Below are positions 2 to 36,200 of a DNA stretch of 39,189 nucleotides, in pieces (positions within the stretch are counted from its first letter, which is position 1; each line of letters begins with the position of its first letter). The translations under genes and the position numbers were made by a program. Origin of the DNA: Candidatus Bipolaricaulota bacterium (GTDB lineage: Bacteria; Bipolaricaulota; Bipolaricaulia; UBA7950; UBA9294); assembly GCA_022711155.1 (NCBI GenBank), contig JAKLFO010000003.1, forward strand, positions 1 through 39,189, read 5' to 3'. Below the pieces are notes generated by a model that was given only the letters and a program-made list of their open reading frames with translations, did not search any database and was not told the origin of the DNA.

Positions 2-949
2 GCAGCCATCGCCGTTCCTTGCTGGTGGGCCACGCGACGCATCTGGAGCTGGCTGTGGCCTGGCCGGAAGGGCGACCTGCCGTGGGTCGACCGCGTCGTC
101 GGGACGGTGGTCTGCCGGCCATCCGAGCTGGTGATGCCGACGAAGCCACGTCGCTGGTGGCAGACAAGTTGGGGCATCATGGCGCTTTTCCTCGTAGTCG
201 TTACCGTCTACGTGGGGGCGCTGACGACGCAGGTCAGTGTCGGCACGCTGATCCGTAGGGCGTCGTCGACGGGCTATTTCTGGCAGAGGCTCGCGACGCC
301 GGACTTCTCGTACTTCTTCCACCCCGATCCCGACCTCGGCGACACGATGCTGAACGCGATCATCCAGACGGTCTTCATGTCGCTGATGGCCACCGTGCTC
401 GGCGTCCTCTTCGCGTTCCCGCTCTCCTTCCTCGGCGCGCGGAATATGGTCACGAAGAATCGCCTCGGTTGGGGCGTGTACACGCTCATGCGCGCCTTCT
501 TCAACGTCGGGCGCTCTATCGAGCCGTTCGTGATGGCCGTCTTCTTCGGCGTCTGCGTCGGGTACGGACCGTTTGCCGGCGTGCTCGCCTTGTTCGTCCA
601 CACGATCGCCGCGCTCGGCAAGCTCTACTCGGAGCAGATCGAGTCGATCGATCCCGGCCCGGTGGAGGCGATCACGGCGTCCGGCGGCCGCCGGACGCAG
701 ATCCTGCGGTACGGCGTGATCCCTCAGGTGGTCCCGCCGTTCCTCGCGTTCACCCTCTACCGCTGGGACATCAACGTGCGCATGGCGACGATCATCGGCA
801 TCGTGGGCGGCGGCGGCATCGGCCGCTTCTTCAACTACTACAAGAACGAGCTTCGGTACCACGAGGTCGGGGCCGTCATCATCATCATCACGGTCGTCGT
901 CTGGGTGATGGACTACATCAGCGGCCGAGTGCGGGAGAGGATCACGTGA
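2..949 (+). CDS. phnE: PhnE-type ABC transporter permease (5' end cut by window edge)
   Basis: Inner-membrane permease of a phosphonate/phosphate-ester type ABC importer. After one N-terminal membrane segment (MALFLVVVTVYVGAL) come the helices typical of PhnE. The cytoplasmic EAA loop that contacts the ATPase reads EAITASGGRRTQILRYG, followed by VIPQ, and the family signature DINVRMATIIGIVGGGGIG is near the C-terminus. The same frame is open without a stop to the left edge. Its third codon positions there are much more GC-rich than in the other two frames, so the gene probably begins outside the window. Internal starts at 107 or 134 would give 280 or 271 residues, the usual PhnE size. Its TGA stop (947-949) overlaps the ATG of the next permease by one base. 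No PhnC or PhnD gene is visible; they may lie upstream. The true substrate is unknown. Family assignment is firm; the start is not. Confidence 0.88.
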   Translation, partial: AAIAVPCWWATRRIWSWLWPGRKGDLPWVDRVVGTVVCRPSELVMPTKPRRWWQTSWGIMALFLVVVTVYVGALTTQVSVGTLIRRASSTGYFWQRLATPDFSYFFHPDPDLGDTMLNAIIQTVFMSLMATVLGVLFAFPLSFLGARNMVTKNRLGWGVYTLMRAFFNVGRSIEPFVMAVFFGVCVGYGPFAGVLALFVHTIAALGKLYSEQIESIDPGPVEAITASGGRRTQILRYGVIPQVVPPFLAFTLYRWDINVRMATIIGIVGGGGIGRFFNYYKNELRYHEVGAVIIIITVVVWVMDYISGRVRERIT

Positions 950-2103
950 TGAACAACAGGTCACAGCTTCCCATTCGGGGTCGCGGAGCCGCGTCCGTTG
1001 CGCTTCGCCTGGCCGGCCGCGCGGCGGCGTGGTCCAAGCGGTTCTGGACAAGGGCTCTCATCTTCGCCATCGACGCCGCCTTCCTCGCCTACCTGTTCGT
1101 CATGGGTTCGTATGTGGTCACGCGCGTGGCGTCGGGCGTGGGCGCGTACCTCGCGATTCCGGGGGGCTTCGTCGTCGTCCTCGCGATTGCCGCTGCGCTC
1201 GTGTGGGGAGCCGTGGGGACTTCCGTCGGCCGCAAGGCCGTCCAGTTCCTGAGCGGCAAGGCCGCGCCCGCGACGGGAAACGCGGACGCGAACCGCGACG
1301 GGGCTCGTACCGCCGCGCCGCCGGCGCGCGTTCGCTGGTACCGCACAGTCTGGGGATGGAGTCTCATCCTGGCGCTCGTCGTCACCGTCGCCGCGGCCAC
1401 GGTCATCACGAGCGTCGACTTCTCGCGCCTCGTTCGGAGCTTCCCCGACGCAGCGAAAATCCTGCGCCGCATCGCGAGCCCGGACGGCTCGATCCTCGGA
1501 GACGTCGTTCGCCTGACGACCATCACGGTGTTCATGGGGCTCATGGCGACGCTCCTCGCCATCCCGTTCGCCGTCATTCTGAGCTTCCTCGGAGCGCGGA
1601 ACCTGACGCGCGGACCGATCGGGAGGCCGGTCTACGTCGTCGTGCGCGCGCTGACGAGCATCGTTCGCTCGATCGAACCGATCATCTGGGCCATCATCTT
1701 CGTCATCTGGGTACGGCCGGGTCCGTTCCCCGGACTTCTGGCGCTCTTCGTCTGCTCGATCGCCGATCTGACGAAGCTCTACTCCGAGCAGCTCGAGTCG
1801 ATCGACAAGGGACCCACCGAGGCGATCACGGCCGTCGGCGGCCGTCGCCTGCAGGTCCTGATCTACAGCATCGTCCCGCAGATCATCAACCCGTACCTCT
1901 CATTCACGCTGTACCGCTGCGACATCAATGTCCGCATGGGAACCGTCATCGGAATGGTCGGCGGCGGCGGGATCGGCATGCTCCTCATGCAGTACGTGCG
2001 CGTGAACGAGTGGGAGGAAGTCAGCATGTGCCTCGTGGCGATCATCGCCGTCGTCTGGTCGATCGACGTGTTGTCGGCGCGCCTTCGAGCCAGGCTCGCC
2101 TAG
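949..2103 (+). CDS. phnE: PhnE-type ABC transporter permease with long N-terminal extension
   Basis: Second permease of the same importer, 384 residues. The C-terminal 270 residues align with the first permease motif by motif: SFLGARNL, the EAA loop EAITAVGGRRLQVLIYS, and DINVRMGTVIGMVGGGGIG. Two consecutive phnE genes are a common arrangement for phosphonate importers, presumably giving a heterodimeric channel. Unusually, about 115 residues precede the PhnE core. They contain two hydrophobic segments (around residues 36-58 and 70-90) and an Ala/Arg/Asn-rich linker. The ATG at 949 overlaps the previous stop, so the two are translationally coupled; the adjacent GTG at 946 is an alternative start. 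The forward frame remains open far upstream of 949, but that stretch is the out-of-frame shadow of the first permease. Confidence 0.9.
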   Translation: MNNRSQLPIRGRGAASVALRLAGRAAAWSKRFWTRALIFAIDAAFLAYLFVMGSYVVTRVASGVGAYLAIPGGFVVVLAIAAALVWGAVGTSVGRKAVQFLSGKAAPATGNADANRDGARTAAPPARVRWYRTVWGWSLILALVVTVAAATVITSVDFSRLVRSFPDAAKILRRIASPDGSILGDVVRLTTITVFMGLMATLLAIPFAVILSFLGARNLTRGPIGRPVYVVVRALTSIVRSIEPIIWAIIFVIWVRPGPFPGLLALFVCSIADLTKLYSEQLESIDKGPTEAITAVGGRRLQVLIYSIVPQIINPYLSFTLYRCDINVRMGTVIGMVGGGGIGMLLMQYVRVNEWEEVSMCLVAIIAVVWSIDVLSARLRARLA

Positions 2104-19240: not shown

Positions 19241-20611
19241 CTACCGGTTGGAGGCTGCAAGGAGCGCGGCGGGCGCGTTGACGAGCCCGTACCCGTAGCG
19301 CTCGTCCCAGCCGCGCGGGCCCAGGTCGACGGCCGTCGACGCTACGAGGTCGATCGCGCGGGCGGGCGTCATCGATGGGTCGAAAGAGAGCAGAAGCGCG
19401 AGGACGCCTGTGACGTGCGGCGCGGCAAACGACGTCCCAGACTGCAGAATGACTCGCCCCCCGACCGTGAACGTCGTCACGCCGTCGCCCGGCGCGCACA
19501 CGTCCACGCCGGTGCCGCGGTTGCTGAAACTCGCGAGGAGGTCGACGGCCGATACGGCGGACACGGCGACGACGGACTCGTAGCGCCCCGGGTACAGAAC
19601 CTCGTCCTTGCCCTCGTTGCCCGTAATTCCGACGACGATCACGCCGCGTGCCTGCGCCCGCGCGATGGCTTCCTCGAACGAGGTCGGCGGCTTGCCGTTC
19701 GCGAAGATGCTCAGGTTGATGATGTCGGCCCCGTTGTCAACCGCGTAATCGATCGCGCGCCCGAAGGACTTCCAGTCCGCCGAGCGAAACGCGTTGGAGG
19801 AATCGAGGAAGCGGACGTCCATAAGCCGGACGCCCGGCGCCACGCCGACGATCGGGTAGCGTCCGGGCCGCGCGGCGATGATCGCCGCGACGCCAGTCCC
19901 GTGCCCGTGGATGGGAGTCCCCTCGAGCGAGGACGCGTCGTTGTCTCGGAAATCCCACCCGTTCACGTCGTCGATGTACCCGTTCCGGTCGTCGTCGATG
20001 CCGTTCGCCGGGATCTCGCCCGCGTTCACCCACAGGCTGTCCGCGAGCTGCGGGATCGTGCGGTCGATTCCGGAGTCGATGACCGCCACGAGGACGTCGG
20101 GCGACCCATGGGACAGCGCCCATGCGGCGCGGGCGTCGATTCGGTCGAGGCCCCAGTTGGCTGGCTCCTGCGCGATGGTCAGGAGTCCTCCGGTAGGCGT
20201 CGGGGCGAGCGGAAGGTCGACGGGCGCGATCCGAAAAGGGAGGCTGGCCGACACCAGCGCTCCTGCGCCGAGGTCGAGGGTCGCGTCGATGAGATAGGTC
20301 CCAGCAAGCTGGAACTCCCAGCGGCTCGCCGCCCGAACGTGAATGCGCCCGCCGGCCGGCAGATCGAACGCGTGGATCGCGAACTGGTCGACGGAGAGCC
20401 CGCTCGACTCGCCCAAGGCGATCTGGCCGCGCACGCCCGTGTAGGCGCGGTCTCCCGAGTTCTCGACGTCGAACGCGATCTCAAGCGGCGTCAAGCCGGT
20501 GACGGTCAGCTGGGCGATGCGGACGGTCTCCTGCGCGTCGACGCGAGCGGCGCAACACAGGAGGGACAAGAGGCAGGCGGCGACGGCTGCGCGCGCCGCG
20601 CCGGTCTTCAT
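19241..20611 (-). CDS. Exported subtilisin-like serine protease (S8 family)
   Basis: 456 residues with signal peptide (about 1-26, ending RVDA). An N-terminal beta domain of about 100 residues (CARDB/Ig-like: ETVRIAQLTVTGLTPLEIAF and on) precedes the catalytic domain. The triad is complete: Asp179 (AVIDSGID), His237 (HGHGTGVAA) and Ser394 (SGTSFAAPHVTG), with Asn332 as oxyanion residue. The acidic segment NGIDDDRNGYIDDVNGWDF (204-222) is a known S8 calcium-binding-type loop. No C-terminal anchor or sorting domain. Its ATG overlaps the stop of the GGDEF-like sensor (ATGA), so protease and sensor are made together. Processing of the giant surface proteins encoded nearby is an attractive but unproven role. 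Confidence 0.93.
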   Translation of the reverse strand: MKTGAARAAVAACLLSLLCCAARVDAQETVRIAQLTVTGLTPLEIAFDVENSGDRAYTGVRGQIALGESSGLSVDQFAIHAFDLPAGGRIHVRAASRWEFQLAGTYLIDATLDLGAGALVSASLPFRIAPVDLPLAPTPTGGLLTIAQEPANWGLDRIDARAAWALSHGSPDVLVAVIDSGIDRTIPQLADSLWVNAGEIPANGIDDDRNGYIDDVNGWDFRDNDASSLEGTPIHGHGTGVAAIIAARPGRYPIVGVAPGVRLMDVRFLDSSNAFRSADWKSFGRAIDYAVDNGADIINLSIFANGKPPTSFEEAIARAQARGVIVVGITGNEGKDEVLYPGRYESVVAVSAVSAVDLLASFSNRGTGVDVCAPGDGVTTFTVGGRVILQSGTSFAAPHVTGVLALLLSFDPSMTPARAIDLVASTAVDLGPRGWDERYGYGLVNAPAALLAASNR

Positions 20612-21933
20612 GCGGTTGGTCCCCTTTCCTCCGACGTCAAGCGATCCGCCACGTCGGCCGCCGCCACGTCGGCGTCCGGCGCCCAGCCCATCGACCGGAC
20701 GACGAGGGATGCGGAGAAGGAGAGCGAAGCTGTCACGTCCGCCGCATAGGCGCGGATGCGCTCCGCGGCGACGGCCGCCCCCGCCTCCGGCGTCTGCGGA
20801 AGCACGCCGACGAATCGATCGGGCGCGACGCGATACACAGTGTCGACCCGCCGCAAGCTGGCCAGCAGGAAGGACGCCGTCTTCACGCGAGCCTTGTCCT
20901 GCTCCCCCGCCGCCTGCCCGGCCATCCCCACAATCTCGACGATGAGGAGCGACGTCGGGTGCCCATAGCGCTTGCCCTTGCTGAGCTCGATCGGGAGTTG
21001 TTCACGGAAGTGGTCGACGTTGTACACGCCGGTCAACTCGTCGAGCAGCACCAGTTTGCGGAGTTCCTGCTCGTGGGTGTGGATGCGAGCGGCCATGAGC
21101 TCGAACCCGTCGGTGAGTTGGCACAGTTCGTCGCGCACGGCGGTTCCCGGCACGCGGTCAGTGACGAGAAGAGGGGAGACCGTGTACGTCCGATCGGCAA
21201 CGGCCTGAGTCGCCGCGGCGAGTCGGCGCACGGGGCGGGTGACCACGAGCGTGAGCACGATGCCGAGGAGGCCGCAGAGGAGGAGGATGCCGGCCGCGGC
21301 CGCCACGCCGAACTGCCACGCCAAGCGGTTTTTGTACCCGGCTTCTTCGTCGAGCGACATGTCGACGAGGACGATCCCCGCCTGCTCGAGGCCCGATCCG
21401 AGCGGGTGCGCGGCCCGCAGGATCTCGCCTGACGGGACGCGGACCCGATGCACTTCGGCGGCACGGAGCGCGTCGTAGGCTGCGCTCTCCTCGCCCGTCG
21501 CCAGGGCGCCGACGCGCGTCGGGTCCGTGCTGGCAACCGTGACGAATCCGCGCGCGGTCGACCCGATCACAGTGATGTCGAGAATGGACTCGTACTGCTC
21601 GAGCAGTCTCGCGATGTCCGCGTCCAGCTCGTCGGAGTAGTAGAGGATGTACTCCTTCTCCTGAATCGACTTCGAGATCACGGCGGCCACGCTGCGGGCT
21701 CGCGCCTCGTAGATGGACGCAATCGACGAGTGGAGAGCGAGGAGCGCGAAGGCGAACAGCGCGCCCACCGCGAGGCAGGCGATAGCGAACACGGGCAGGA
21801 CGAGCTTACGCCGCAAGGGGATCCCGTACCGCAAGCGCGACCGTAAGCGCGCCCACCGACCCATCGGCTCGATCGGCGCGGCTCCCATCGCGCCGTCACC
21901 GCGCTCCGCTCGCTGCTCGTCCGTCGACGTCAT
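20608..21933 (-). CDS. Membrane sensor with HAMP and degenerate GGDEF domain
   Basis: 441 residues. TM1 lies at about 44-67, a periplasmic sensor region at 68-205, TM2 at 207-232 and a HAMP-like linker to about 290. A GGDEF-fold domain spans about 296-410. The domain opening LLDELTGVYNVDHFREQL is typical of diguanylate cyclases, but the active-site loop reads RVAPDRF (368-374) where RGGDEF should be. It should not make c-di-GMP. It could still bind nucleotide or signal by contact. AAGGAGGAG precedes the ATG. Its stop overlaps the start of the S8 protease. Confidence 0.85.
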   Translation of the reverse strand: MTSTDEQRAERGDGAMGAAPIEPMGRWARLRSRLRYGIPLRRKLVLPVFAIACLAVGALFAFALLALHSSIASIYEARARSVAAVISKSIQEKEYILYYSDELDADIARLLEQYESILDITVIGSTARGFVTVASTDPTRVGALATGEESAAYDALRAAEVHRVRVPSGEILRAAHPLGSGLEQAGIVLVDMSLDEEAGYKNRLAWQFGVAAAAGILLLCGLLGIVLTLVVTRPVRRLAAATQAVADRTYTVSPLLVTDRVPGTAVRDELCQLTDGFELMAARIHTHEQELRKLVLLDELTGVYNVDHFREQLPIELSKGKRYGHPTSLLIVEIVGMAGQAAGEQDKARVKTASFLLASLRRVDTVYRVAPDRFVGVLPQTPEAGAAVAAERIRAYAADVTASLSFSASLVVRSMGWAPDADVAAADVADRLTSEERGPTA

Positions 21934-21948: not shown

Positions 21949-24315
21949 CTACGATTGCCCGATCAGCCCTTCCCGTAGGAGGTACTCCATCGCCACATCC
22001 GAGGGATCGCGCCCCAACAGCCGCACGCGGCTCACGAGGTCACGAAGCGCCGCGTCAGAGAGGTGGGCGACGAGGCGCCCGAAGGCTGACCTGAGCGCCG
22101 CGCCGGACACTTCAGCCGAGACGCACAACCCGATGGCCCGCGACGGCAGTGCCTCCAAGCCCGCGAGCGGAACGAACCCCCCGAGCGTCAGGGTCTCTTC
22201 GAAGCGCGCCACGACCGCGCAGTCGACGCTTCCGAACTTGAGCAGGCTCTCCGCCGCCGCGGTCGTCTCGACGACCTGGATTGAACGCACTTCGTAGCCG
22301 CCGTTGCGAAGAGACTGGGCGACCGACTCCGCCGGGGCGCCGCCGGGCAGGGCGACAGATACAGATACGGGACTGCCGGCCGCCCGCCGCGCCAGTTCAG
22401 GGCGCGCGACGATGGACCACGCGTCGTCAAGGGACGAATCCCAGAACGTCCAGAGAGCCGCCTCGGCGGTGTCCTCGTCGCACCAGGCGATGTCGAGGTC
22501 GCCGCGAGCGCGCGCCGCCGCGAGCTCTCTCTCGGAGCCGAGTCCGATGAGGTCCACGACCAGGACTCCCTCCTCGACGAGCATCCACTGCAAGAGACGT
22601 CCGAGGACGAGGGCGGACGTCGATCGCTCCGTCCCGATCCCTAGCGCCTTCGCGCGGTCCGCCGCGGGGAGGTGCACGTTGCCCTCGAGGGGGCCGGGGC
22701 CGCCGGAGAGGCCGTTCGCCGCCAGGAGAAGAGGGATCTCAGTCTCGTTTCGCACGCCGACGCGCGATCCCCGCAGTGCGTTGTCGAGAACGAGCGGAGC
22801 GGTCGCCGACGCGGGCCGCTCGATTGCCCACCCGCGGTCCGCAATCCAGGCATCTTCCGCCCAGCGCACGTCACTCCACGCGATGCCCACATCGCAGTCC
22901 ACGAGGGAGTTCCCCTCCACGCGCGCCCCGTAGCCGAGGCGGCACAGGGCCACGCCGGCGCGGCAATGAACGATCGAGTTCTCGAGCGCGGAGGCGCGAG
23001 ACGATCCCGCCAAGAACACGCCCAGCCCTGCACCGGAGACGCGGTTCTCCGCCGCCGTGTTGCCGGAGATCCCATTGAGAAGGGCAATCCCCGCGTTGAC
23101 CGCATCCTCGACCTCGCAGCGGCGAACCGTCACGTCGCTCGAGCGCGCCACGACGACGCCCGCCGGGCAACCGGCGAGCTGTGCGTCGAGAACCTGAACG
23201 CTCTCGCAGCGATCGATCACGACGCCGGCGCCCTCCGCGGCGCGCACGGCCGCTCGCAGGATCTGCGCGCGAGACGCGTCGCGGAGGGAGACGCCGACGA
23301 GCCCTCCACGGGCGCTGTCCCGCGCGATGAGGTCGTCCGCCTCGCCGTCGATCGCGATCGCGACGCCGCACGAGGAGAAGGTGCTGTCGCACACCGCGTT
23401 CTCCTGTCCCCTCGATGCGTGGACGCCCTCGCGGCACGCGCGGAAGTCCGTCGCCACGACGAGCGTTCGTTCCGCGCCATCCAAGAGGATGCCCGCTTCG
23501 GCGCTGTCGCGGAAGTCGCAGGCCGCGATCGACGCGCCCTTCGTCTGCCGGAGTTCGATGCCGACTCGAGAGCCCGCGACGGCGCACCCCTCGATGGCGG
23601 CCCCGGCTCCCCCGGTGATTCGAATCCCCGTATCGCCGTCGCGGGCGCGCGCCTCGTCGAGTCGCACTCCGTCGGAGTTCTCAATGACAACGCCCAGGAC
23701 GCAGGCGTCTAAATCGAGACGCGCGAGAAGACACGCGCTCGCATTGCGAACGCGCACGGCAGCCTCGGCGAGACGCTGGAAACGGGCCCCCTGCACAGCG
23801 TTCCCTGGCGCGAGCACTTCGACGCCAACGCCCGCGTCGCGGAACGTGCACCCTTCCACGACGCTTCCCGTGCCCGCTGCGACTCGCACCCCAACGGAGA
23901 GAGACTCGAAGCGGCCCCGCGCCACGCGACAGTCCGAGCCCTGGACTAGAATCCCGACCTCGCCGCCGTCGAAGGCCAGCCCGTCCACGGACACTCCGTC
24001 GGCGACGACCGTCAGCGTGACGCCGGAGTCGGCGCGCAGGACGGCGTCTCCGCCGATCGAGCGGAGGACCACGCCGGGCACGCTGACCGAGACTCCCCCC
24101 AAGAAAGGTCCCCACCGCGCGTCGAGGGCGATCGTTCCGCCTTCGACCACCGCCTCGAGCGCGTCGGAGAGCGTCGCCGCGTCGCGGGGGACGACGATCG
24201 CTCCCGCGGGAAGCCGTTCGCGCGTCAATTCCCATGGGATCAGGAACGCCGCTCCAGCTGCCACGGCAGCAAGGGCGGCCATCCACACCCTCTTCCGACC
24301 CAGCCGACCCTTCAT
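21949..24315 (-). CDS. Membrane-anchored parallel beta-helix protein fused to an OpuAC/QAT-like solute-binding domain
   Basis: 788 residues. A membrane segment at about 11-27 (signal anchor or signal peptide) is followed by roughly 480 residues (about 60-545) of short repeated strands such as GVGVEVLAPGNAVQGARF and GIRITGGAGAAIEGCAV, the NosD/PbH1-type right-handed beta-helix. From about residue 559 the sequence changes. GIGTERSTSALVLGRLLQWM, LIGLGSERELAAARARGDLDIAW, ESLLKFGSVDCAVV and the end LSDAALRDLVSRVRL, GRDPSDVAMEYLLREGLI follow the order of quaternary-amine (OpuC/OsmX/ProX) binding proteins. The binding-site aromatics are not clearly conserved and lobe 2 looks shortened. No matching permease or ATPase is nearby. 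The start at 24315 lacks a strong ribosome site. Confidence 0.8.
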   Translation of the reverse strand: MKGRLGRKRVWMAALAAVAAGAAFLIPWELTRERLPAGAIVVPRDAATLSDALEAVVEGGTIALDARWGPFLGGVSVSVPGVVLRSIGGDAVLRADSGVTLTVVADGVSVDGLAFDGGEVGILVQGSDCRVARGRFESLSVGVRVAAGTGSVVEGCTFRDAGVGVEVLAPGNAVQGARFQRLAEAAVRVRNASACLLARLDLDACVLGVVIENSDGVRLDEARARDGDTGIRITGGAGAAIEGCAVAGSRVGIELRQTKGASIAACDFRDSAEAGILLDGAERTLVVATDFRACREGVHASRGQENAVCDSTFSSCGVAIAIDGEADDLIARDSARGGLVGVSLRDASRAQILRAAVRAAEGAGVVIDRCESVQVLDAQLAGCPAGVVVARSSDVTVRRCEVEDAVNAGIALLNGISGNTAAENRVSGAGLGVFLAGSSRASALENSIVHCRAGVALCRLGYGARVEGNSLVDCDVGIAWSDVRWAEDAWIADRGWAIERPASATAPLVLDNALRGSRVGVRNETEIPLLLAANGLSGGPGPLEGNVHLPAADRAKALGIGTERSTSALVLGRLLQWMLVEEGVLVVDLIGLGSERELAAARARGDLDIAWCDEDTAEAALWTFWDSSLDDAWSIVARPELARRAAGSPVSVSVALPGGAPAESVAQSLRNGGYEVRSIQVVETTAAAESLLKFGSVDCAVVARFEETLTLGGFVPLAGLEALPSRAIGLCVSAEVSGAALRSAFGRLVAHLSDAALRDLVSRVRLLGRDPSDVAMEYLLREGLIGQS

Positions 24316-24419: not shown

Positions 24420-27400
24420 CTACGTGTCTCCGAGCACGATGAGCACCGCCGCGTCACCAACACGAACCCAGACCGCGCTCCGGCCCGAGGGCAAAGGCCC
24501 CGTGGGACGGAGAGTCACCTCTTGGCCCAAGGTCGACGCGTCGATCGGCAGCGCGACGGGAAGGCTCGTCTCGAGAGTCAGGGCGACAACGCGCGTCGTG
24601 CCTGCGCCCGACGCGTCGACCCCTTCAGGCAGCGGGACGACGAGGGACGCGCCGCCGCCGGCCGGCAGGGCGGCCAACGCGGCACGAGCCACAAGCTGTG
24701 CCAGCCTGGGCTCGTTCTCCAGCCCCGCGGTCGCCAGCAGATCCGCGCCGTCGGCGTCCTCGCCCGCCGTGATGACCCCGAGGTTCGTGTGCCAGTTGGT
24801 GTCGCTGTCCGGGGCGTAGGCGTCCGTTCTCTCCATGCTGCCTATGGTCAAGGCATCGCCGGCCGCCCAGCCGCCCACATCGTCTCGGTCCGCGTTCGCC
24901 GTGTCGACAACGTAGCCGGTCGGACTCACCAACTCGAGGACGGCGCCCTGTCGCGGCAGCGCCAGCGTCCGGTCTCCCGTCACGCCGGGGTCGTACACGA
25001 GCCCGGCCTCTACTCCCGTCACCGTGTCGTCGCTCCCGCGCTCGAGGAGGAAGAAGTCCCTGCGCGCCTGACGCCCGCTCAGGTCGACCCACCAGGTTGA
25101 CGGATCCTCCGGATTCGGCCCGAAGACCAGCTCCGCGTCGCGCTCTGCCGGATCGATGGTTCCAGCCAGCGCAAGCTCCCTCCAAACCTCGTCGCCTGGT
25201 ACCTCGGGCTTCGCCACGCGCCAGCGAAGCGACCAACCTGTGAGATCGACGAGGCGGTCGGATAGGTTGCGCAGCTCGATCCACTGCTCGTCCGAGCTGG
25301 CGCCGGTCCCCGCCCAGGCCACTTCCGAGATGATCACCCGCGGCGCGCAGGATCCCGCGACCGCGATCGTTTGGATCGCCGAAGCGGAGCTGCCACACGC
25401 GCCCGTGGCCGTCCATAGGCGCAAGACGACGCCGGCGCCCGTCCACGCGTCGAGCTCGGCGAAGTCCTCGTAGCTCACAGTCGGCGACGCGCCGCCAGAG
25501 ACTGGGTCGTAGGCCACAGCCCACCCGGTCAGGGCGGGATCGATGGAGTCCCCGCACGACACGGTGACGTCGCCCGGCGCCACGAGGCGCACGTCGCCAG
25601 AGAAGAGGACGCGAATCCGCTGAACGCCTGTCACCCGGTTCCCGCAAGCGTCCGTCGCCTCCCACGTCCGCTCGATTGTTCCCGCCCCTCCGCAGCCGTA
25701 GAGCGCGGCGTCGTCGGAGTACGTCACGCGAGCTCCACCATCGCACGTGCTACGGGCCACGGCGAGGCCGGTGGCCGCGGGGGCCGTCGGCTGACCGACG
25801 TCGACGTCCAGGTTCGGCGGCACAACCAGGCTCAATGAAGGAGGAAGAGGAGCCGCCACCACCCGGATGATCTGGTCGCTCGTCGCCGCGTTTTCGCACC
25901 CGTCGACGGCCGTCCACGTCCTCACGATGGTCCCGAGGCCGTTCTGATCGAGAGACGCCGCATCCGTGTAGCGTACGGTGGGCTGCGAGCAAGAGTCCGT
26001 CGCCAGCGCCTGTCCCGTGAGGTGAGGGAGGACGTCTTGGCCGACCTGGACCGTCGTGTTGGGAGGCGTCGTCAGAGACGGCGGCGTGGAGTCGATCGCC
26101 GAGATCCTCTGCACGGCAGAGGATGCATTGCCACAACCGTCCGTCGCCGTCCACGTGCGAAGGATGGTCGCACCGCCTCCGCAGCCCGCCCCGAGGATGA
26201 GATCGGAATGCGCGACGCTGGCCCCGCTCCTGTCCGAGGCACTGGCGCTCCCTGTCGACGCAGGGTCCGTCGAGTGGCCGCACTCGACGGTCGCATCCGG
26301 CGGCAGGACGAGCGCGGGAGGCGTCATGTCGACGATCGTGATGGTCTGGACGACCGACGCGCTGTTGCCGCATTCGTCCGTCGCGGTCCACGTTCGGAGG
26401 ATGGTCGACCGGCCGGCGCAGTCTCCGGGGACCTCGACGTCCGCGTGGGCGATCGAAGCGGGAGAGCAGCGGTCGCTCGCCGCGGCGAGCCCCGTCGCCA
26501 GAGGACTGGTCGAATCTCCGTACTCGACGACCACATCGGTCGGCGCGGTCAGGGTGGGCGGAACGTCGTCGACGAGCCGGATCGTCTGCGCGGCGGACGT
26601 TGTGTTCCCGCACTCGTCGGCTGCGCGCCAGGTGCGGGTCACGGTTCCTGCTCCGCCGCATCCCGAGAGCTGCAGGGAGTCGGAGTAGGTCACCTCGGGC
26701 GCCTCGTAGATCGCGTCGGGGTCGCTTGCGGTCGCCCATCCGGTCACATCCGGCGAGTACGGGTCGCCGCACGCGACCTCCGCCGGAGGGGGAACGAGCA
26801 GGCTCACGTGCCCCGAATCGACCACGGTGATCGTCTGCTCCGCGCTCACGCTGTTGCCGCACCCGTCCAAGGCCGTCCAGGTCCGCAGAATCGATCCTGT
26901 CCCGTCGCATCCGGTGAGGTCGGCCTGGTCACGGTAGGTCAGGGTCGGAGCGTGCTCGGGGTCATGGTGGCCGACGGACGCCCAGCCCGTGAACGACGGA
27001 TCGCGCGAGTCCACCGTCTCGATTGTGATGTCCGCCGGAACCGTGAGCACGGGCGCGACGCTATCGACGACAAGGATCATCTGAACGGCGCTCGACGAGT
27101 TCCCGCACGCGTCGGTCGCGGTCCATGTGCGCACGATCGTCCCTGTTCCGTCGCAGCCCGACAGGTCTGCGGCGTCCGCGTACGTCACGCTCAGAGCCTC
27201 GTCGACCGCGTCCGGATCGATCGCCGTCGCCCATCCGGTGGCATCCGGAGTCGTTGGATCCCCGGCCTGAACCGTCACATCCGCCGGGACTTCGATGCGG
27301 ATGTGCCCGCTGTCGATGACCGTGATCGTCTGAACCCCAGTCGAGCGATTGCCGCACACGTCGGTCGCCGTCCACGTCCGCAGGATCGTCCCCGTCTCAT

Positions 27401-29975
27401 CGCACCCCGAGAGAAGAGCGACGTCGGAGTAGGCGACGAGCGGCGGCTCGTCGTCTGCGTCTGGATCACTCGCGGTGGCCCAGCCCGTCGCCGAGGGATC
27501 CGAAGGGCTCTCCGCCTCGATCGTCACGTCCGCCGGGAGGACGAGGACCGGGCTCGTGGCGTCGACAACCCAGATCGTCTGCAGTCCGGACGCCGCACTG
27601 CCGCACGCGTCGTAGGCTGTCCACGTGCGTTCGATCACTCCTGTCCCATTGCAGCCGTTCAGCGCCTCTACGTCAGCGTACGCGACGACGGGCGGAGTCG
27701 GGCACGTGCTGTGAACCGAGGCGTATCCAGCGGTTGTCGGATCGGTGGGGTAGTTGGGAGCAACCGTCACATCGGCTGGCGGCACCAGTGTGAGGGTCGG
27801 CGGAGGGGGCGCCAGGACCACGGCGATGGTCTGGACTCCCGTCGAACCGTGGCCGCAGAGATCCGTTGCCGTCCAGGTTCGCGTGATGGTTCCCGTCCCA
27901 TCCGCCGCAAGATCCTCCGCGTCCGAGTAGGTCAGCGCCGCGATCGAGCAAGCGTCCGCGGCCGCCGCTTGCCCTGTCGTCGCAGGCAAGGTGGATTGGC
28001 CCACGCGAACCGTCACGTCGCTCGGCACCGTGAGGGAGGGCGCCTGTGTGTCGACGACGACGATCCTCTGGACAGCGCTCGTCACGTGTCCGCACGCGTC
28101 GGCGGCCATCCACGTGCGGTAGATCGTCCCCGTGCCGCAGTACCCCGTGAGGCGCGCCTCGTCCGTGTAGGTCACGACAGGCATCGAGCAATCGCCCGTC
28201 GCCGCGGCCTGTCCTGTAGCCGCGGGAGCGACCGAGTGGCCGCACTCGACGGTCACGTCGTCGGGCAGCGTCAGGCGCGGCGCGGGCGGCTCCGCCACGA
28301 CGATCGTCTGCACTCCCATGGCTGTGTGGCCGCACGCATCGGTCGCAGTCCACGTCCGGCGAATCGTTCCCGCGCCGCCGCAGCCTGTGAGGTCCGCGTC
28401 ATCTGCGTAGGATACAGCCGGCATCCCGCAGGTATCTGTGGCCGTCGCCCAGCCGGTCGCCGCGGGATCCACGGCGTCTCCGCAGCCAACTGCGATGTCC
28501 TCCGGCACGTTGAGATGTGGAGCCTGCGTGTCGACCACCGTGATCGTCTGTACGCCCGTCGAGACGTTGTCGCACGAGTCGGTCGCAATCCACGTCCGCG
28601 CGATGGTCCCCGTCCCACCACAGCTGGAGAGGCTCGGCGAGTCGACGTAGGACACCGTCGGCGTCGAGCATCCGTCGGTGGCTGTCGCGAGTCCGGTTGC
28701 CGCAGGAAGCGTCGAGTCGCCGCACTCGACTGCGACATCCGTAGGCACGAGAAGCGTCGGCGCCGCGGCGTCCGCCACCGTGATCTTCTGATGGGCCGAG
28801 ATGCTGTTCCCACAAGCGTCGGTCGCCGTCCACGTCCGCACGATGGTCCCCGTCCCGCCACACCCGACGAACGAGGCGGAATCCGAGAATGAAATCGCCG
28901 GAGCGTGTCCGGAGTCGTCGGTCGCCGTCGCCTGTCCCGTCGCCGCCGGAGTCGTCGAGTGCCCGCATGGTACAGCGACGTCGCTCGGCGTCGTCAGGAG
29001 CGGAGGCGTGGAGTCCACGACCACGATCGTCGACGCCTGGGCCGTGCATCCGGCGGAGTTCGTGACGGTGACGGTGTAGGCGCCCGCCTGCGCCGGGCCG
29101 GCCGCGGGGATCGTGGGGTTCCGATCTGCGCTCGTGAACCCGCCGGGCCCCGTCCAGGCGTAGGATGTTCCACCGCTCGCGACGAGCTGGATCGTCTCGC
29201 CGGGGCAGTAGGGCCCCGCGTTCCCGGCCGTGGCGGCCGGGATGGCCGACACGGTGACCGTGCGGGAGTGACTGTCGGACGCGCCGTTGCGGTCGCGAAC
29301 TGCCAAGGTCACGGCGTAGTCGCCGGAAGCGGCGTACGTGTGCGTCGGACTTGCCTGGGAGCTCGTTCCGCCGTCACCGAATGCCCACGAGTAGGTGTAG
29401 GGCGCCGACCCTCCGGTCGTCGCGTCGGTGAAGGCGATCGGCGTGCCGAGGCACTGCGGGGAGCTGGACGTGAAGTCGACGACGAGCGGCGTCGACACGA
29501 CGATGTCGCGGCCGCTCGAGCACTTGGCGACACGGCTCGCGCACGTGGCGTCGGAGCAGGACTCGGGACTCGCCGACCAGCTCACGATGACGTTGTCGAG
29601 AGACACCGCGCTCCCGCACGGCCACGTGATGGTCGCTAGGAGGACGTCTGTGGTCCCGACCGCGAGATCGCCGGCGCACGACGTGATGCGCCGGGTAGCG
29701 GCCCCCGCGACGCGCAGGTCGCCCATGAGAATGACCGCGTAGCGTCTCGCGCTCGACGTGAACCGCCCGTAGACCTGCGCCGTACCCGTCGCCCCGGGCT
29801 CGCACGGGCCGCCCGAGGCCTGGACGTACACGGACGTCAGCGTGACGTCGTTCGCCGTGCAGTGGAACGAGCAGTTGGGCCAGACGTCGGCTGCTCGGAG
29901 CGACGCGGAGCCCGCGAACAGCAACGCCGCCCCGGCGAACAAGAGCACCCATCGCAAGCGCGTGCCTGTAGGCAT
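24420..29975 (-). CDS. Giant exported protein: PKD domain, 15 HYR-like repeats, lamin-tail domain
   Basis: 1851 residues. Signal peptide (about 1-28), a Cys-rich N-terminal domain, a PKD domain (TYSWAFGDGGTSSQASPTHTY) and an Ig-like domain (GPYCPGETIQLVASGG) come first. Fifteen tandem HYR-like repeats of about 80 residues follow, each with a core such as GTGTIVRTWTATDACGN ending in QTITVVD. A lamin-tail domain (VIISEVAWAGTG, WIELRNLSDRLVDLTGWSL) and a beta-rich C-terminus close the protein. The cysteine in the DACG position is kept in all 15 repeats. No LPXTG or type IX sorting signal is seen. ATG 29975 is chosen because GGGAGG sits just upstream; a GTG at 29987 lies inside that site. Probably a surface or matrix structural protein. 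Confidence 0.9.
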   Translation of the reverse strand: MPTGTRLRWVLLFAGAALLFAGSASLRAADVWPNCSFHCTANDVTLTSVYVQASGGPCEPGATGTAQVYGRFTSSARRYAVILMGDLRVAGAATRRITSCAGDLAVGTTDVLLATITWPCGSAVSLDNVIVSWSASPESCSDATCASRVAKCSSGRDIVVSTPLVVDFTSSSPQCLGTPIAFTDATTGGSAPYTYSWAFGDGGTSSQASPTHTYAASGDYAVTLAVRDRNGASDSHSRTVTVSAIPAATAGNAGPYCPGETIQLVASGGTSYAWTGPGGFTSADRNPTIPAAGPAQAGAYTVTVTNSAGCTAQASTIVVVDSTPPLLTTPSDVAVPCGHSTTPAATGQATATDDSGHAPAISFSDSASFVGCGGTGTIVRTWTATDACGNSISAHQKITVADAAAPTLLVPTDVAVECGDSTLPAATGLATATDGCSTPTVSYVDSPSLSSCGGTGTIARTWIATDSCDNVSTGVQTITVVDTQAPHLNVPEDIAVGCGDAVDPAATGWATATDTCGMPAVSYADDADLTGCGGAGTIRRTWTATDACGHTAMGVQTIVVAEPPAPRLTLPDDVTVECGHSVAPAATGQAAATGDCSMPVVTYTDEARLTGYCGTGTIYRTWMAADACGHVTSAVQRIVVVDTQAPSLTVPSDVTVRVGQSTLPATTGQAAAADACSIAALTYSDAEDLAADGTGTITRTWTATDLCGHGSTGVQTIAVVLAPPPPTLTLVPPADVTVAPNYPTDPTTAGYASVHSTCPTPPVVAYADVEALNGCNGTGVIERTWTAYDACGSAASGLQTIWVVDATSPVLVLPADVTIEAESPSDPSATGWATASDPDADDEPPLVAYSDVALLSGCDETGTILRTWTATDVCGNRSTGVQTITVIDSGHIRIEVPADVTVQAGDPTTPDATGWATAIDPDAVDEALSVTYADAADLSGCDGTGTIVRTWTATDACGNSSSAVQMILVVDSVAPVLTVPADITIETVDSRDPSFTGWASVGHHDPEHAPTLTYRDQADLTGCDGTGSILRTWTALDGCGNSVSAEQTITVVDSGHVSLLVPPPAEVACGDPYSPDVTGWATASDPDAIYEAPEVTYSDSLQLSGCGGAGTVTRTWRAADECGNTTSAAQTIRLVDDVPPTLTAPTDVVVEYGDSTSPLATGLAAASDRCSPASIAHADVEVPGDCAGRSTILRTWTATDECGNSASVVQTITIVDMTPPALVLPPDATVECGHSTDPASTGSASASDRSGASVAHSDLILGAGCGGGATILRTWTATDGCGNASSAVQRISAIDSTPPSLTTPPNTTVQVGQDVLPHLTGQALATDSCSQPTVRYTDAASLDQNGLGTIVRTWTAVDGCENAATSDQIIRVVAAPLPPSLSLVVPPNLDVDVGQPTAPAATGLAVARSTCDGGARVTYSDDAALYGCGGAGTIERTWEATDACGNRVTGVQRIRVLFSGDVRLVAPGDVTVSCGDSIDPALTGWAVAYDPVSGGASPTVSYEDFAELDAWTGAGVVLRLWTATGACGSSASAIQTIAVAGSCAPRVIISEVAWAGTGASSDEQWIELRNLSDRLVDLTGWSLRWRVAKPEVPGDEVWRELALAGTIDPAERDAELVFGPNPEDPSTWWVDLSGRQARRDFFLLERGSDDTVTGVEAGLVYDPGVTGDRTLALPRQGAVLELVSPTGYVVDTANADRDDVGGWAAGDALTIGSMERTDAYAPDSDTNWHTNLGVITAGEDADGADLLATAGLENEPRLAQLVARAALAALPAGGGASLVVPLPEGVDASGAGTTRVVALTLETSLPVALPIDASTLGQEVTLRPTGPLPSGRSAVWVRVGDAAVLIVLGDT
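25370..29020 (-). repeat. Array of 15 HYR-like coding repeats, about 245 bp each
   Basis: Unit boundaries recur at intervals near 245 bp: about 29020, 28780, 28540, 28300, 28060, 27820, 27570, 27325, 27080, 26835, 26585, 26345, 26105, 25865, 25615 and 25370. Units differ in sequence enough that the array is old rather than freshly expanded. Sub-types occur in an ordered pattern (see findings). Confidence 0.85.
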
Positions 29976-30006
29976 CGTTCCTCCCACACCTCTCTATCTC
30001 ACTACG

Positions 30007-30032
30007 AGTCTACCACGCACGCACTCCGTCAA
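30007..30032 (-). promoter_or_regulatory. Extended -10 promoter of the HYR-repeat gene
   Basis: Reverse strand TGG followed by TAGACT (30015-30007) forms an extended -10. A TTGACG (30032-30027) lies only 14 bp upstream, too close for a normal -35. The expected leader is about 25 bases. Confidence 0.35.
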
Positions 30033-30150
30033 GCCGCGCCGAGTTTGCGGGGACGAGCCGAGGGACATCTCTCGCCGCCTGGGCGAGCCGTCCGAGGTCC
30101 GTGGTGTAGTTGTTTCCCCCGGCTTTGGCGAGGCTGGTTGCCGTCCTGCA

Positions 30151-30159
30151 TGGTAGAAT
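30151..30159 (+). promoter_or_regulatory. Extended -10 promoter of the DUF11/CARDB giant
   Basis: TGG plus TAGAAT (30151-30159), with no clear -35, 44 bases before the ATG at 30204. It mirrors the TGG-TAGACT of the divergent giant gene. The rest of the 228-base gap shows nothing else I can support. Confidence 0.35.
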
Positions 30160-30203
30160 CGTCTGTGCGCTCGGAAGCGGGCAGCGACAGAGGGAGGAGA
30201 CGT

Positions 30204-33200
30204 ATGGGAAGGCGCTCTGGTGCGGTGGTGTTCGCGCTCATGGCCGCGATCTGTGCGGTCGCAGGCCCCGTCTGCGCGCAGGTCTTGAGCGGCCCGACGC
30301 AGCTCGACCGTTGCGATGAGGGCCTCTTCACGGTTGTGTTCGCGAACCCGAGTCCGACGCAGACGGCTTGCCAGATCGTCTTCGAAAACGCCCCTCCGAG
30401 CGGCGATTTCGAGTACGTCGCCGGCTCGGGCCGGCTGGACGTCCCGGGGTACGGGACCTACTCAGCCGATCCGACCCTTGGAACCTGGAGCGTCGACGCG
30501 ATCGTCGGTGCGTCCTACGAGCTTCCGCCCGGCGAGACGGTGACGCTCGAGTTCCGGCTTTCGACGGGGTGCGCAGCCGTGTCCGGCGTTGACCAAGTCG
30601 AAATCCGCTACGTCGATTGCGCGGATCCCGGGGCACCGCTGGACGTGACGGATTCCCTCTCGGTGGAGGTCCTCCCCGGAGCGATCACCGTCGTGAAAAG
30701 TCCGGCAAATCCCGCAGGCGGCGTCGGTGACGTCGTCACCTGGACGCTCGAAGTGAACAGCACGGGACTCGGAAGCATCAAGAACGTCGTGGTGAGGGAT
30801 ACGCTCGGGCCGGGCCTCGAGTACGTCTCGTCCACCCCGGCGGGCTCTGCTGCGGGGCAGACGGTCTCGTGGGATGCGGGCGACATCGCGGCCCTCGCTG
30901 AGATGGCGCCGGACGACACAGTGACCATCTCGCTCTCGGCGCGCGTCGTCGCCTGCTCGGGCCTCGACAACGTGCTGAACGCGCAGTTCGGCTGCGACGG
31001 CGCGGTCTGCGCGGACACGGAGACGGGCTTCGGAGACTGCGGAGATCCGGCCACGTCGTCCGTCGCGCTCATCCAGCGGTTGCCCTTCCTCCAGTTCTCC
31101 GCCCCAACGATCCGCGTTCCCTACTGCGCGGCAACCACGACGGTCACGATTCCCGTGACGAACTCAGGAGACGGCGCGGCTCGTTCTCCCGTGCTCTGCG
31201 CCGATCTTGGCTCCCTGGCCGTGACGAACGTCCAGGGCGGAGCGACGTACAGCGACGGCTGCTTCTACCTTCCCGACGTCGCGGCGGACTCGACGTTCCC
31301 TCTGATCTTCGACGTGACGTTCGCGGGCGACTGGTGCTCGTCGATGCCCAGCGGCGCACCGCTGTATACGCTCGAGTACACGAACGACTGCGGCGTCCTG
31401 CACCGCGCGCAGCCGCAGTTCGGATCGATCGGGGCGTCGGACGCCCCCAGCTTGACCGTGTCCAAGACGGGACCGGCGATTGCCGCCTTCGGGGCGGACG
31501 TCACGTATGCGATCACGGCGCGCTACACGGGTCCCACGAGCTGCGGCAGCAGCACGACAGGCATCGTCACCGTGACGGACACGATTCCCGACGGGTTCCC
31601 CGTGGTCGCGACGGCGGGAGGCACGTGGACGCCGGGTGCGGGCGGGACCGGGGGAACCGTCGTGTGGACGTTCGATCCCGCGGTGGTTTCGACCGCGACC
31701 TGGAATCTCGTCGTCCACATCCCGCTCGAGTGCGGCTACTGCTACACCGAACGGACGAATGGCGTGACCGCGGAGACGACGAGTTGCTGCGGCTGCCTCA
31801 TGACCGCGTCGGCGTCGGCAACCACGGCCATCACGTGCGACCGCCTGTATACGTCAGACGCCGAGATGTCGAGCACGGCCCTCGAGCGCTGCGGCGACGC
31901 CATCACGGTGACGGACACCCACACGTTCGCCGACGACGCGGGCCTCGACACGATCGCGTTCGAGGACTTCGTCTACTCGTTCCTCAAGGAGAACGGCCTG
32001 GTCTATGTCGCAGGAAGCGCGTCCGCGACGATCGACGGGACCCCGACGGCCGTGACGGTCACGGATGGCGCGGGCGAGACGACGTTCGCCGTGGGAGACG
32101 CTTCGTCGGTTCGGGGGCGTACGCTCGTCTTCACCTACGACATCCGTGCGACGAGCGCGAGCGCACCCGCCTGCGGCAGTTCCGCATCGTTCTACGTCTG
32201 GATGAGCCACGAGATCCCCGAAGTCGGTCCCTGTCAGACGTTCTACGACACGGTGCAACTCACGGTCGAGCCGCCGGCGATGGCCGTGTCGATCTCCGGC
32301 GTGCCGACCATCCAAGAGGACTGCGCGACGTATCCTGTCACGATCACGTTCCGCCGCACGTCCGCACTGGCAGATCCGTACGACGCGCGCCTCGTCCTGA
32401 CCGGGACGTCGCGCGTGATCGCCGACTTCGCCGGCGCTACGTGGATCGGCGTCACGCCGGCCGAGGCGCCGATCGTCGGGGCCGACTCGGTCGAGTGGAG
32501 GTTCGCGGACGGATTCACAGCTCCCGGCGCCACGGCGACGATCACCGTGCCGGTCACAGCCAAGTGCGGCGGGCCGCTCGTCGCGCTCGGCGCGACGGGG
32601 CGGTTCGACGACCTCTGCAACGATATCGCGGGGTACAACGACACCTGCTCCACGTCGGCGTCCGCGGCCTCGTCGCTCCGCCTGAGCGGAGACGTCCACA
32701 TCTCGAAGACGCCCGAGGTCATCTACACCACGCAACGAACCGTCACGTGGCAGATCGAGATCTACAATTCGTCAAACGGAACAGCCTACAACGTCTACGT
32801 CGACGACATCCTGGGGAGCGGGCTCGTCTACGCCTCCTCCTCCGCCACGGGGTACTCGGGCGCCTTCTCCGTGCAGGCGAACCGCGATCACACGGGGAGC
32901 GTCATCAACGGCGCATCGTTCCTGTTCGAGAAGGTCGCTCCGGGGGAGCGACCAGTGATCACGCTCACCGCGAACCTCGTCGCCTGCAACAACATGACGA
33001 ACACGGCAACGGTCGGCTGGGGATGCGGCGGCACGGCCTGCCAGACTCCGCGATCCGACAGCTCCTACGTGCTCGTGGCCCCGGCCAACGTCGTGGCGAC
33101 GTCGGCCGCGCCCACGCCGCTCGACGCTTGTGCGACAGCCAAGGCCTCCGTAACGTTCCGCAGCGCGGGCATCGCCGTCGCCTACAACCTGACCGCGACG

Positions 33201-36200
33201 GCCACGCTGCCCGCCGGTCTCGCCTACGCAGGCAACCCCGAATACCGCGTGAGCGACGGAGCGTGGCTCCCAGCGGGAGCGCCCTCGGGCGTCCCCGGCC
33301 CGACGTTGACATGGACGTCGGCGGACATCGCGGCTCTGGGCGCCGTCAGTCCCGGGGTGCGGATCGAGATCCGGTTCGACGTCCAGGCGACCTGCAGCTT
33401 CACCGGCGGCACGCTGCAAGCGCGATCGGGGTACCAGAACCCGTGCGGCCAGTCGTTCCTGTCCGGAATCGGGTCGTTCTCCATCGCCGCGCGGACGCCG
33501 TCCCTGTCGCTCACGACGACCCAGACGTCGCCGTCGGCTGGGCAGCCCGTCGCGTGCGGCGGCAACGTGACGTGGGAGATCCGCGTCACGAACAACGGCC
33601 CGGCGGCGGCGAGCAGCATCTGGGTCGAAGAGACGCTGGGCTCCGGATTGAGCTACGTCTCGTCGACGGGAGGCGCCGACGGCGGATCGGGCTCCGGACA
33701 GTCGGCAACGTGGGAGATCGTGAACCTCGGCGTCGGAAGCACAGCCGTGCTCACGGTGACTGCGGAGGCGACGAGTTGCGGCGCTCTGACGAGCTCCATC
33801 AGGGCGTACTGGGCCTGCGGACCCGACGGAAACTCGGCAACAACGCCGGACTGCCTCTCGTCTTCGTCCGCGACCGCGTCGGCGACCGCGACGCGGGCTG
33901 TGAGCGTGGCGGCCACCGCGTCGATGTCGCCCAGCTCGATCGGCGCGTGCGAGACGCAGAAGACGATCGCGATCTCGCTTTCGAACGCGAGCGTCTCGGC
34001 TCCCGCCTACAACCCCGACGTGCGCCTCACGTTGCCCGCCGGGCTCACCTACCGGCCCGGGACAACGGAGGTCAACTGCGGCGGCGGGTTCGCTCCGGCG
34101 AGCGACCCGGCGCAGGCGGGCCAAGTTCTCACCTGGTACAGCCTCACGTCGACGGGTTCGGGCAACGACCTCTGTTCGCTGATCCCGGCCGGCGGATCGG
34201 TCGACGTCCGCTTCCAGGTCGATGCGTCCTGCTACCGAACGACATCGACCGCCACGCTGGATCTCTACTACTACGACTGCTGCGGGAGCCCGCAGTACCA
34301 CGTGACAACGACGCCGTCGCTCACTGCAGCGGCGCCGACCTTGTCGGTCACGATGACGCCGTCTTCCGCGGCCCTGGATTGCGCCAACGCGGCCAGCACC
34401 GTGACCTGGACGATCGCAGTGACGAACACGGGAAGCGCGACCGCGGGCTTCGTCCGCATCATCGACACGCTCGGCGCCGACCTCGTGCGCGTGTCGGGCG
34501 GGACGCAGATCGGGGCCAATCCACAGCAGTGGGGCTGGGAGTTCGGCCCTCTCGCGCCCGGCGGCTCACAAAGCGTGCAGATCGTCGTCCGTCTCGCGGC
34601 TCCGCCCAATGACTGCACGGCGTCGCGCCGCACGAGCACGGCCGTCACGAGTTGGGGCTGCACTCTGGCTGCCCTCGATGGGGACCCGAACACGGCGACG
34701 GAGTACTCGTGCACGTCGAGCGGAGGATCCGTGACCCGGACGGCCACCGTCACGGTCCCCGACCTCTCCGTCTCGGCGTCGGACATTTCGCCGCAGTTCA
34801 CCTGCGCGAGCGACGGCATCTCGAACGGGCGCGTGGCGCTCACAGTCCGCAACACCGGCACCGCGGCCATCACGACGGACTTCTCGATCACGTACTCCGA
34901 GTCGACGACCGGCTGGTCGGGAGGCGGAACGTTCACGAGCTTGGGAGGAACCCTCCCGCTCGCGGCGGGCGGCAGCCGGACGCTCACGCTCTCCAACTGG
35001 CCGATCGCCTGCTCGTCCTGCTCGTACGCCTTCACCGTCTCGCTCGACACTGGCGCGGCGATCTGCGAGTGCCGCGAGAACAACAACACGGCCACTCTGG
35101 CCTACACGCCGGCTTCGCCCGACCTCACGGTGGCGTCGAGCACGCTCGCGCCGACGTGCGCCGGCGACGGCCAGGTTCGCGTGCAGGGCAACGTGACGCT
35201 GCGCAACCAGGGCTGTGGAACGAGCCCGTTCACGACGAACGTCCCCATGCGCTTCACGGTGTACGCCGGCGCGTCCTGCAGCGGGACCGTCCTCGACCAG
35301 TGGACGCAGACGTTCACCGGCGTGAGCCTTGCTGCCGGGGGCGGAACGCAGGCCTTCGCCGTGGACCGCACGGCGACGTACAACTCCTGCTCGCCATGCG
35401 AGATCTCGATCCTCATCGAGGCGGACTACTCGAACGCAATCTGCGAGTGCAGCGGGGCAAACAACGCGCTCTGCGCCGGCCCGCTCACCATCTCGTTCCC
35501 CGATCTCATCGTGAGCGCGATCGACTTCTCGGGCGTGGGCTGCGCGAACGACGCGATGGCGGGATTCGTCGCCGTCACGGTCACGAACCAGGGCTGCGGT
35601 AGCGCAGACGCGTTCAACGTCGGGCTGTCCACTTCGGGGTGCCTGACGTTCGCAACCCAGCGCGTAACGAGCCTCGCCGGCGGCTCGAGCGCGGTCGTCC
35701 AGTTCCCGGTGGCGACGACGTGGAGCGGCTGCGGGACGTGCGGCTGCACGTTCACGGCGACCGTTGATGCGGGAAGCGAGGTCTGCGAGTGCGACGGCGC
35801 CAACAACACGGGGACCGCGACGTACACGTCGCCCCTTCCCGACCTCGTGATCGCGACGTTGACGGCGTCTGCGACAAGCCCCTGCCAGCCTGGATCGGCA
35901 AGCGTGACCGTCCGCAACGCGGGATGCGGCGTCGCGCCGAGCGGCGTCATCGTGGGCGTCACGGGCGCCGTAACTGGACAGGCAGCGACGTCGGTCGCCC
36001 TAGCAGCGGGAGAGAGCCAGACCGTCACGGTGCCGTTCGACACTCCCGTCGGGTGCGGGTCCGGATACGCGGTGACCGCGACGGTCGACCCGCTCTTCGC
36101 CGTCTGCGAGTGCAACGGGGCGAACAACGCGTCGGCGACGACGTTCTCGGTGAGCTCGCCCGACCTGGCCGTGACGGATCTCGCGGCGGACTGCAATCTC

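Follow-up and report, generated by a model that had tools for sequence, protein, structure and literature searches.

The window (the whole stretch of Candidatus Bipolaricaulota DNA that was analysed, 39,189 nucleotides) encodes on its minus strand a 788 aa protein in which a membrane helix, a beta-helix and an OpuAC/OsmF-type binding domain are joined, as identified by family models, homologs and AlphaFold. The reading frame (21949..24315) comprises 788 codons with an ATG start and zero internal stops, and so represents one continuous protein. A giant repeat protein of 1855 aa (24420..29987, minus strand), with family matches to PKD, HYR_4C and a lamin-tail-like segment, is encoded upstream and ends 104 bp ahead of the fusion gene. 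The gene for a 441 aa Cache-HAMP pseudo-GGDEF protein (20608..21933, minus strand; hereafter the partner) begins 15 bases downstream of the fusion and overlaps by 4 bp the gene for a secreted S8 (subtilisin-type) protease (19241..20611, minus strand), which features an N-terminal Ig-like region and a Peptidase_S8 match with intact D/H/S motifs. This arrangement agrees with a first-pass annotation of the sequence, which had placed the fusion between an S8 protease/sensor pair and a giant repeat protein. A second giant stop-free frame (29862-39189, plus strand; spanning 3109 aa or more and carrying DUF11 and CARDB repeats) is divergent from the minus-strand giant repeat gene and runs off the contig end.

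Domain architecture of the fusion protein

The N-terminus consists of a basic stretch followed by a single long hydrophobic helix (residues 2-31 in the AlphaFold model; 24223..24312, minus strand), which was assigned from this model and the N-termini of homologs. By-eye inspection found no lipobox or evident signal-peptidase site, and most homologs likewise show neither a lipobox nor an evident cleavage site. Judged by eye and from the AlphaFold helix, this segment is read as an uncleaved signal anchor that would leave the remainder of the protein outside the cytoplasm. A parallel right-handed beta-helix follows at about residues 40-545 (22681..24198, minus strand), where the strand pattern of the full AlphaFold model agrees with this fold and residues 205-475 match Beta_helix (2.7e-40) and NosD (3.7e-27). 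Beta_helix and TIGR03804 were matched in all 21 homologs, and the conserved positions are mostly the Asn, Gly and Leu residues of the coil ladder.

HMM and profile searches, AlphaFold, Foldseek and alignment were used to define the two-lobed C-terminal domain (about residues 556-788; 21952..22650, minus strand). The Pfam OpuAC match in the fusion itself spans residues 559-633 at 21.5 bits, barely over the 21.2-bit cutoff; this marginal match is not due to chance, because OpuAC was matched in 20 of 21 homologs (best 3.4e-20). A phmmer search of the PDB with the single fusion protein gave zero matches, and solved structures were reached only by a profile of the C-terminal domain, which matched a Brucella binding protein (5uve, 5.6e-26), an Agrobacterium protein (4nd9, 7.9e-24) and Escherichia coli OsmF (4wep, 3.3e-19). 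AlphaFold produced a confident two-lobed model of this domain (pLDDT 87.9, pTM 0.80), for which the top Foldseek ranks were OpuBC, YehZ, EgtU and ProX, with a best query-normalised TM-score of 0.81 (OpuBC), while the first 42 matches were all QAT-type binding proteins or sensors derived from them. With both the two-lobed fold and the family HMM present, the domain is a member of the QAT-type binding proteins. When the full fusion model was searched with Foldseek, no solved structure among the matches listed aligned well across both parts. The first-pass annotation had proposed a beta-helix fused to a QAT-type binding domain, and the family models, profile search, AlphaFold and Foldseek all bear this out, with a true two-lobed fold in place of a mere short helix pair. 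The fusion of the two folds is certain, while its mechanism is something that we infer.

B12-binding/corrinoid proteins were also matched by residues 551-610 of the fusion family (MtgC at 5.9e-5 and glutamate mutase at 0.002). This identity was rejected because the E-values are weak, the strand-helix-strand pattern is shared and full-length solute-binding proteins (SBPs) match far better.

Loss of the canonical ligand site

Four canonical stand-alone SBPs from the same phylum (loci L088, L089, L092 and L093), which carry FTEQ, YTGT-type, NNTY-type, RPDG, GTD and PPY motifs, served as the reference for ligand motifs, and cleft residues were assessed from the alignment. None of 21 fusion domains retains the Tyr of YTGT or PPY, the first Asn of NNTY, the Thr of GTD or the Phe and Glu of FTEQ, and the Arg of RPDG is deleted in all 21. 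An earlier impression that obvious ligand-binding aromatics had been lost was therefore correct, with one exception: the aromatic at the NNTY position is kept as Trp in 15/21 domains. In addition, about 20 residues are deleted from lobe 1 between YTGT and NNTY. The majority of the former contact positions are variable across fusion members and form no fixed new pattern; three new invariant residues (E689, E707 and R765) are found near the lost contact motifs. Because the canonical motifs are missing, binding of betaine-type solutes is unlikely judging from the alignment, and it is possible that the domain binds another ligand or no ligand.

Distribution of the fusion

The same domain order is kept in other genomes, with at least 22 homologs, all from Candidatus Bipolaricaulota; full-length members were found in numerous genomes of a single family, and a second family contributes one genome. 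The source genome encodes a second copy (30% identity) on a different contig, with its own partner gene directly after it. A single-sequence scan of named genomes returned zero fusion relatives and an alignment-based scan returned 13, all from uncultured bacteria that are mostly labelled Bipolaricaulota/Acetothermia. In no other phylum did the alignment scan detect the fusion; as it relies on short conserved patterns, distant analogues would escape it. The open-licence literature searched yielded nothing relevant on c-di-GMP in Bipolaricaulota and no published beta-helix/SBP fusion. Within this literature the join thus appears to be undescribed, as the first-pass annotation had supposed; the parts are already known, and the combination and its gene set are new.

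An obligate partner with a degenerate GGDEF domain

Family matches and alignment indicated that the partner is composed of a transmembrane (TM) segment, an sCache-like domain, a second TM segment, a HAMP domain (residues 228-285; 21079..21252, minus strand; domain match) and a pseudo-GGDEF domain (residues 297-405; 20719..21045, minus strand). The Cache-like region was matched by sCache_3_2 in 13 of 19 homologs. Neither GG[DE]EF nor the metal/GTP-binding DxDxFKxxND is present in any of the 22 aligned partners, where the signature is replaced by sequences such as GPFRF and SDNRF. The I-site RxxD (R361-D364; 20842..20853, minus strand) is kept in all 22, and a further invariant Arg (R392) lies 31 residues past it. 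A domain search revealed no EAL domain in the partner. With its active site destroyed, the protein is not predicted from its sequence to be an active diguanylate cyclase, and the pseudo-GGDEF domain would most likely bind c-di-GMP at the preserved I-site. RxxD is absent from the outgroup of the partner alignment, and the outgroup protein from genome G040 is only distantly similar to the partner (E 2e-37), with no fusion gene beside it. A distant partner-like HAMP/GGDEF protein from another family of the class (L094:6299-7594) has GGAEI for GGDEF, no RxxD and no fusion.

The partner is the obligate gene mate of the fusion. It is the next gene after the fusion in 23/23 cases with both visible, and each of the 23 full-length partners in 100 genomes of the phylum adjoins a fusion gene or, in G021, a fragment at a contig end. 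Only two fusions lack a partner (G024 and G032), both of them at contig ends. The fusion and partner trees have 17 of 19 splits in common, compared with a mean of 0.2 and a maximum of 3 for shuffled labels, and a paralog clade indicates that the two genes were duplicated together; the agreement of the trees is partly explained by the common species tree. What the first-pass annotation missed is that the neighbouring "sensor" is this obligate partner, with its GGDEF active site destroyed and its I-site intact.

Conserved gene block

Loci of the related family usually comprise, in order, a small protein, PAS-GGDEF-EAL, an Ig/dockerin-type secreted protein, a small beta-sandwich-like protein, the fusion, the partner, the S8 protease, AAA and OsmC, followed by DRTGG, a response regulator and a kinase, and the window retains this block from the fusion onward. 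The OsmC, DRTGG, AAA and response regulator/kinase genes are likewise conserved in order, so the shared order might by itself mean no more than that genomes of this lineage rearrange slowly. Of 22 pairs, 16 have the S8 gene, with intact catalytic motifs, directly after the partner; the gene is not an obligate component because the paralog pairs and locus L048 have no adjoining S8 gene. Giant repeat proteins also flank the paralog pairs that lack the protease, while giant cadherin-like/Big_9/CshA repeat proteins adjoin loci L034, L043 and L050; the giant repeat protein beside the fusion in the window is a candidate surface target. The secreted Ig-like/dockerin type I protein encoded upstream of the fusion (L043:7155-8246 and equivalents) has an Ig-like part similar to the region at the N-terminus of the S8 protease.

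A PAS-GGDEF-EAL gene is found upstream of the fusion in many loci. In the source genome (89% complete) there are four strong GGDEF genes and no EAL domain was found, whereas many relatives carry PAS-GGDEF-EAL in the block. An Omp85 match in this genome favours the existence of an outer membrane in the source organism; whether Bipolaricaulota are diderm is undecided in the literature (PMC6092417). No ABC permease or ATPase was found in the conserved block, for which the earlier statement that the fusion lacks a nearby ABC partner is therefore correct. The window does contain two BPD_transp_1 ABC permease ORFs (107-2100, plus strand) about 20 kb from the fusion. These ORFs adjoin genes for a pyrimidine nucleoside phosphorylase and a cytidine deaminase, and possibly function in nucleoside uptake.

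Discussion

As the adjoining obligate partner has lost its GGDEF active site but kept its I-site, c-di-GMP-linked signalling is the leading reading. We tentatively propose, as a real possibility and not a firm expectation, that the fusion is a repurposed flytrap/beta-helix envelope adaptor that governs the cell surface together with the partner, which would serve as c-di-GMP receptor. Its N-terminal helix would tether the adaptor to the cytoplasmic membrane, and a long, non-enzymatic beta-helix would project from the membrane, bearing a fold taken from a QAT-type (OsmF/ProX) ABC transporter that would have given up betaine-type solute binding. Building on computed features (the fold fusion, the ligand-motif loss, the obligate gene pair, the loss of the GGDEF active site, the retention of the I-site and the intact S8 motifs), the fusion and the Cache-TM-HAMP pseudo-GGDEF partner would form a single transmembrane signalling unit through putative physical contact. 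The pseudo-GGDEF domain would most likely take up c-di-GMP at the I-site, HAMP would convey this state through the membrane to both Cache domain and fusion, in the presumed outward direction, and the output would be control of the presumed targets: surface proteins, namely the giant repeat proteins and, at most loci, S8 protease processing. The PAS-GGDEF-EAL gene upstream of the fusion in many loci, the four strong GGDEF genes of the source genome and the giant repeat proteins beside several loci also speak for this adaptor. That no EAL domain was found in the partner or in the source genome (89% complete) counts against it, as do the pairs with no adjoining S8 gene and the conserved order of other genes in the block. 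A more far-reaching version, in which a new c-di-GMP architecture has an I-site Cache-HAMP protein acting via a beta-helix/flytrap adaptor on the S8 protease and giant adhesin-like proteins for surface-protein release or display, is unlikely; if true, it would represent the conversion of an ABC binding protein into a signalling adaptor in Bipolaricaulota.

The inside-out direction is favoured over an outside-in sensor, a somewhat doubtful alternative in which the flytrap and/or beta-helix would bind a new ligand (a peptide, polysaccharide or cell-wall fragment) and the fusion would signal to the Cache-HAMP protein. Cache-HAMP proteins usually signal inward, which speaks for such a sensor, as do the invariant E707, E689 and R765 near the lost contact motifs. 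There is also precedent in NspS/MbaA, where a binding protein works with a membrane GGDEF protein (PMC5646818, PMC8967002), and in MtProX, a QAT protein with an altered site that can take polyphenols (PMC5894108). However, the mostly variable former contact positions argue against a newly fixed site, and an enzymatic output of the partner is unlikely because its output domain is without catalytic residues.

A purely structural scaffold, in which the flytrap would be a defunct binding protein retained as a docking or dimerisation module for surface assembly of giant repeat and dockerin/Ig-like proteins without any signalling, is quite improbable. The loss of the ligand motifs together with the lobe 1 deletion would suit a scaffold, as would the surface proteins in the neighbourhood, but a scaffold would not explain why the fusion is strictly paired with a HAMP pseudo-GGDEF protein. 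Uptake of osmolytes or other solutes by a tethered binding protein serving an ABC transporter is highly improbable: the fold family is common to OpuBC/ProX/OsmF and the window does contain two permease ORFs, but these are distant and lie beside nucleoside genes, the conserved block has neither permease nor ATPase, the canonical ligand motifs are lost and related genomes have separate canonical SBPs with intact motifs. Finally, a NosD-like metal/enzyme maturation factor with an incidental C-terminal domain is barely conceivable, since the NosD and TIGR04247 matches stem from the beta-helix repeats in common, TIGR04247 scores 58.9 bits against a curated cutoff of 300 bits, and no nos-type genes occur in the window parts examined.

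Under the preferred adaptor reading, a transport-binding fold would have been recruited to a new function in a phylum for which there is no genetics, and every case examined links the fusion to a pseudo-enzyme whose c-di-GMP site is intact. This offers a lead on possible surface control in Bipolaricaulota and, if confirmed, would join the few known routes for c-di-GMP action outside the cytoplasm as one of different design.

Comparison with known systems

OsmF/YehZ, ProX and OpuBC/OpuAC have the same two-lobed fold, strand-helix order and C-terminal helix pair (LxxxVxL...P..VA.eFL..GLI) as the fusion domain, which differs in being tethered behind a beta-helix, in a lobe 1 that is short by about 20 residues, in its missing ligand motifs and in the lack of any ABC partner within the conserved block. 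NosD/pectate-lyase-like proteins share the parallel beta-helix repeats, but the fusion has no NosD-level score. Parallels in gene content are seen in LapD/LapG/LapA and the Desulfovibrio Dvh system, where a membrane HAMP/Cache protein with a non-catalytic c-di-GMP-type domain likewise occurs with an extracytoplasmic protease gene and giant repeat surface proteins. In contrast, the putative system described here has no EAL/HD-GYP receptor domain, includes an extra beta-helix/flytrap protein and features a Peptidase_S8 protease, not a LapG-type one. LapD binds c-di-GMP through its EAL domain (PMC3032553), which is absent from the partner, so the partner is not a LapD family member; the Dvh system has the same logic built from different parts (PMC13090378). 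NspS/MbaA also pairs a non-transport protein of binding-protein fold with a membrane GGDEF-type protein, but NspS is an SBP for polyamines that lacks a beta-helix, whereas the fusion has a beta-helix and a lost ligand site, and MbaA is a GGDEF-EAL protein that modulates c-di-GMP, whereas the GGDEF domain of the partner is dead. PelD resembles the partner in its degenerate GGDEF domain with an intact RxxD and downstream Arg, an Arg/Asp/Arg trio that binds c-di-GMP (PMC7112168) and makes PelD a c-di-GMP receptor. PelD has a GAF domain, lacks HAMP and Cache domains and controls polysaccharide export, whereas the partner has both HAMP and Cache domains.
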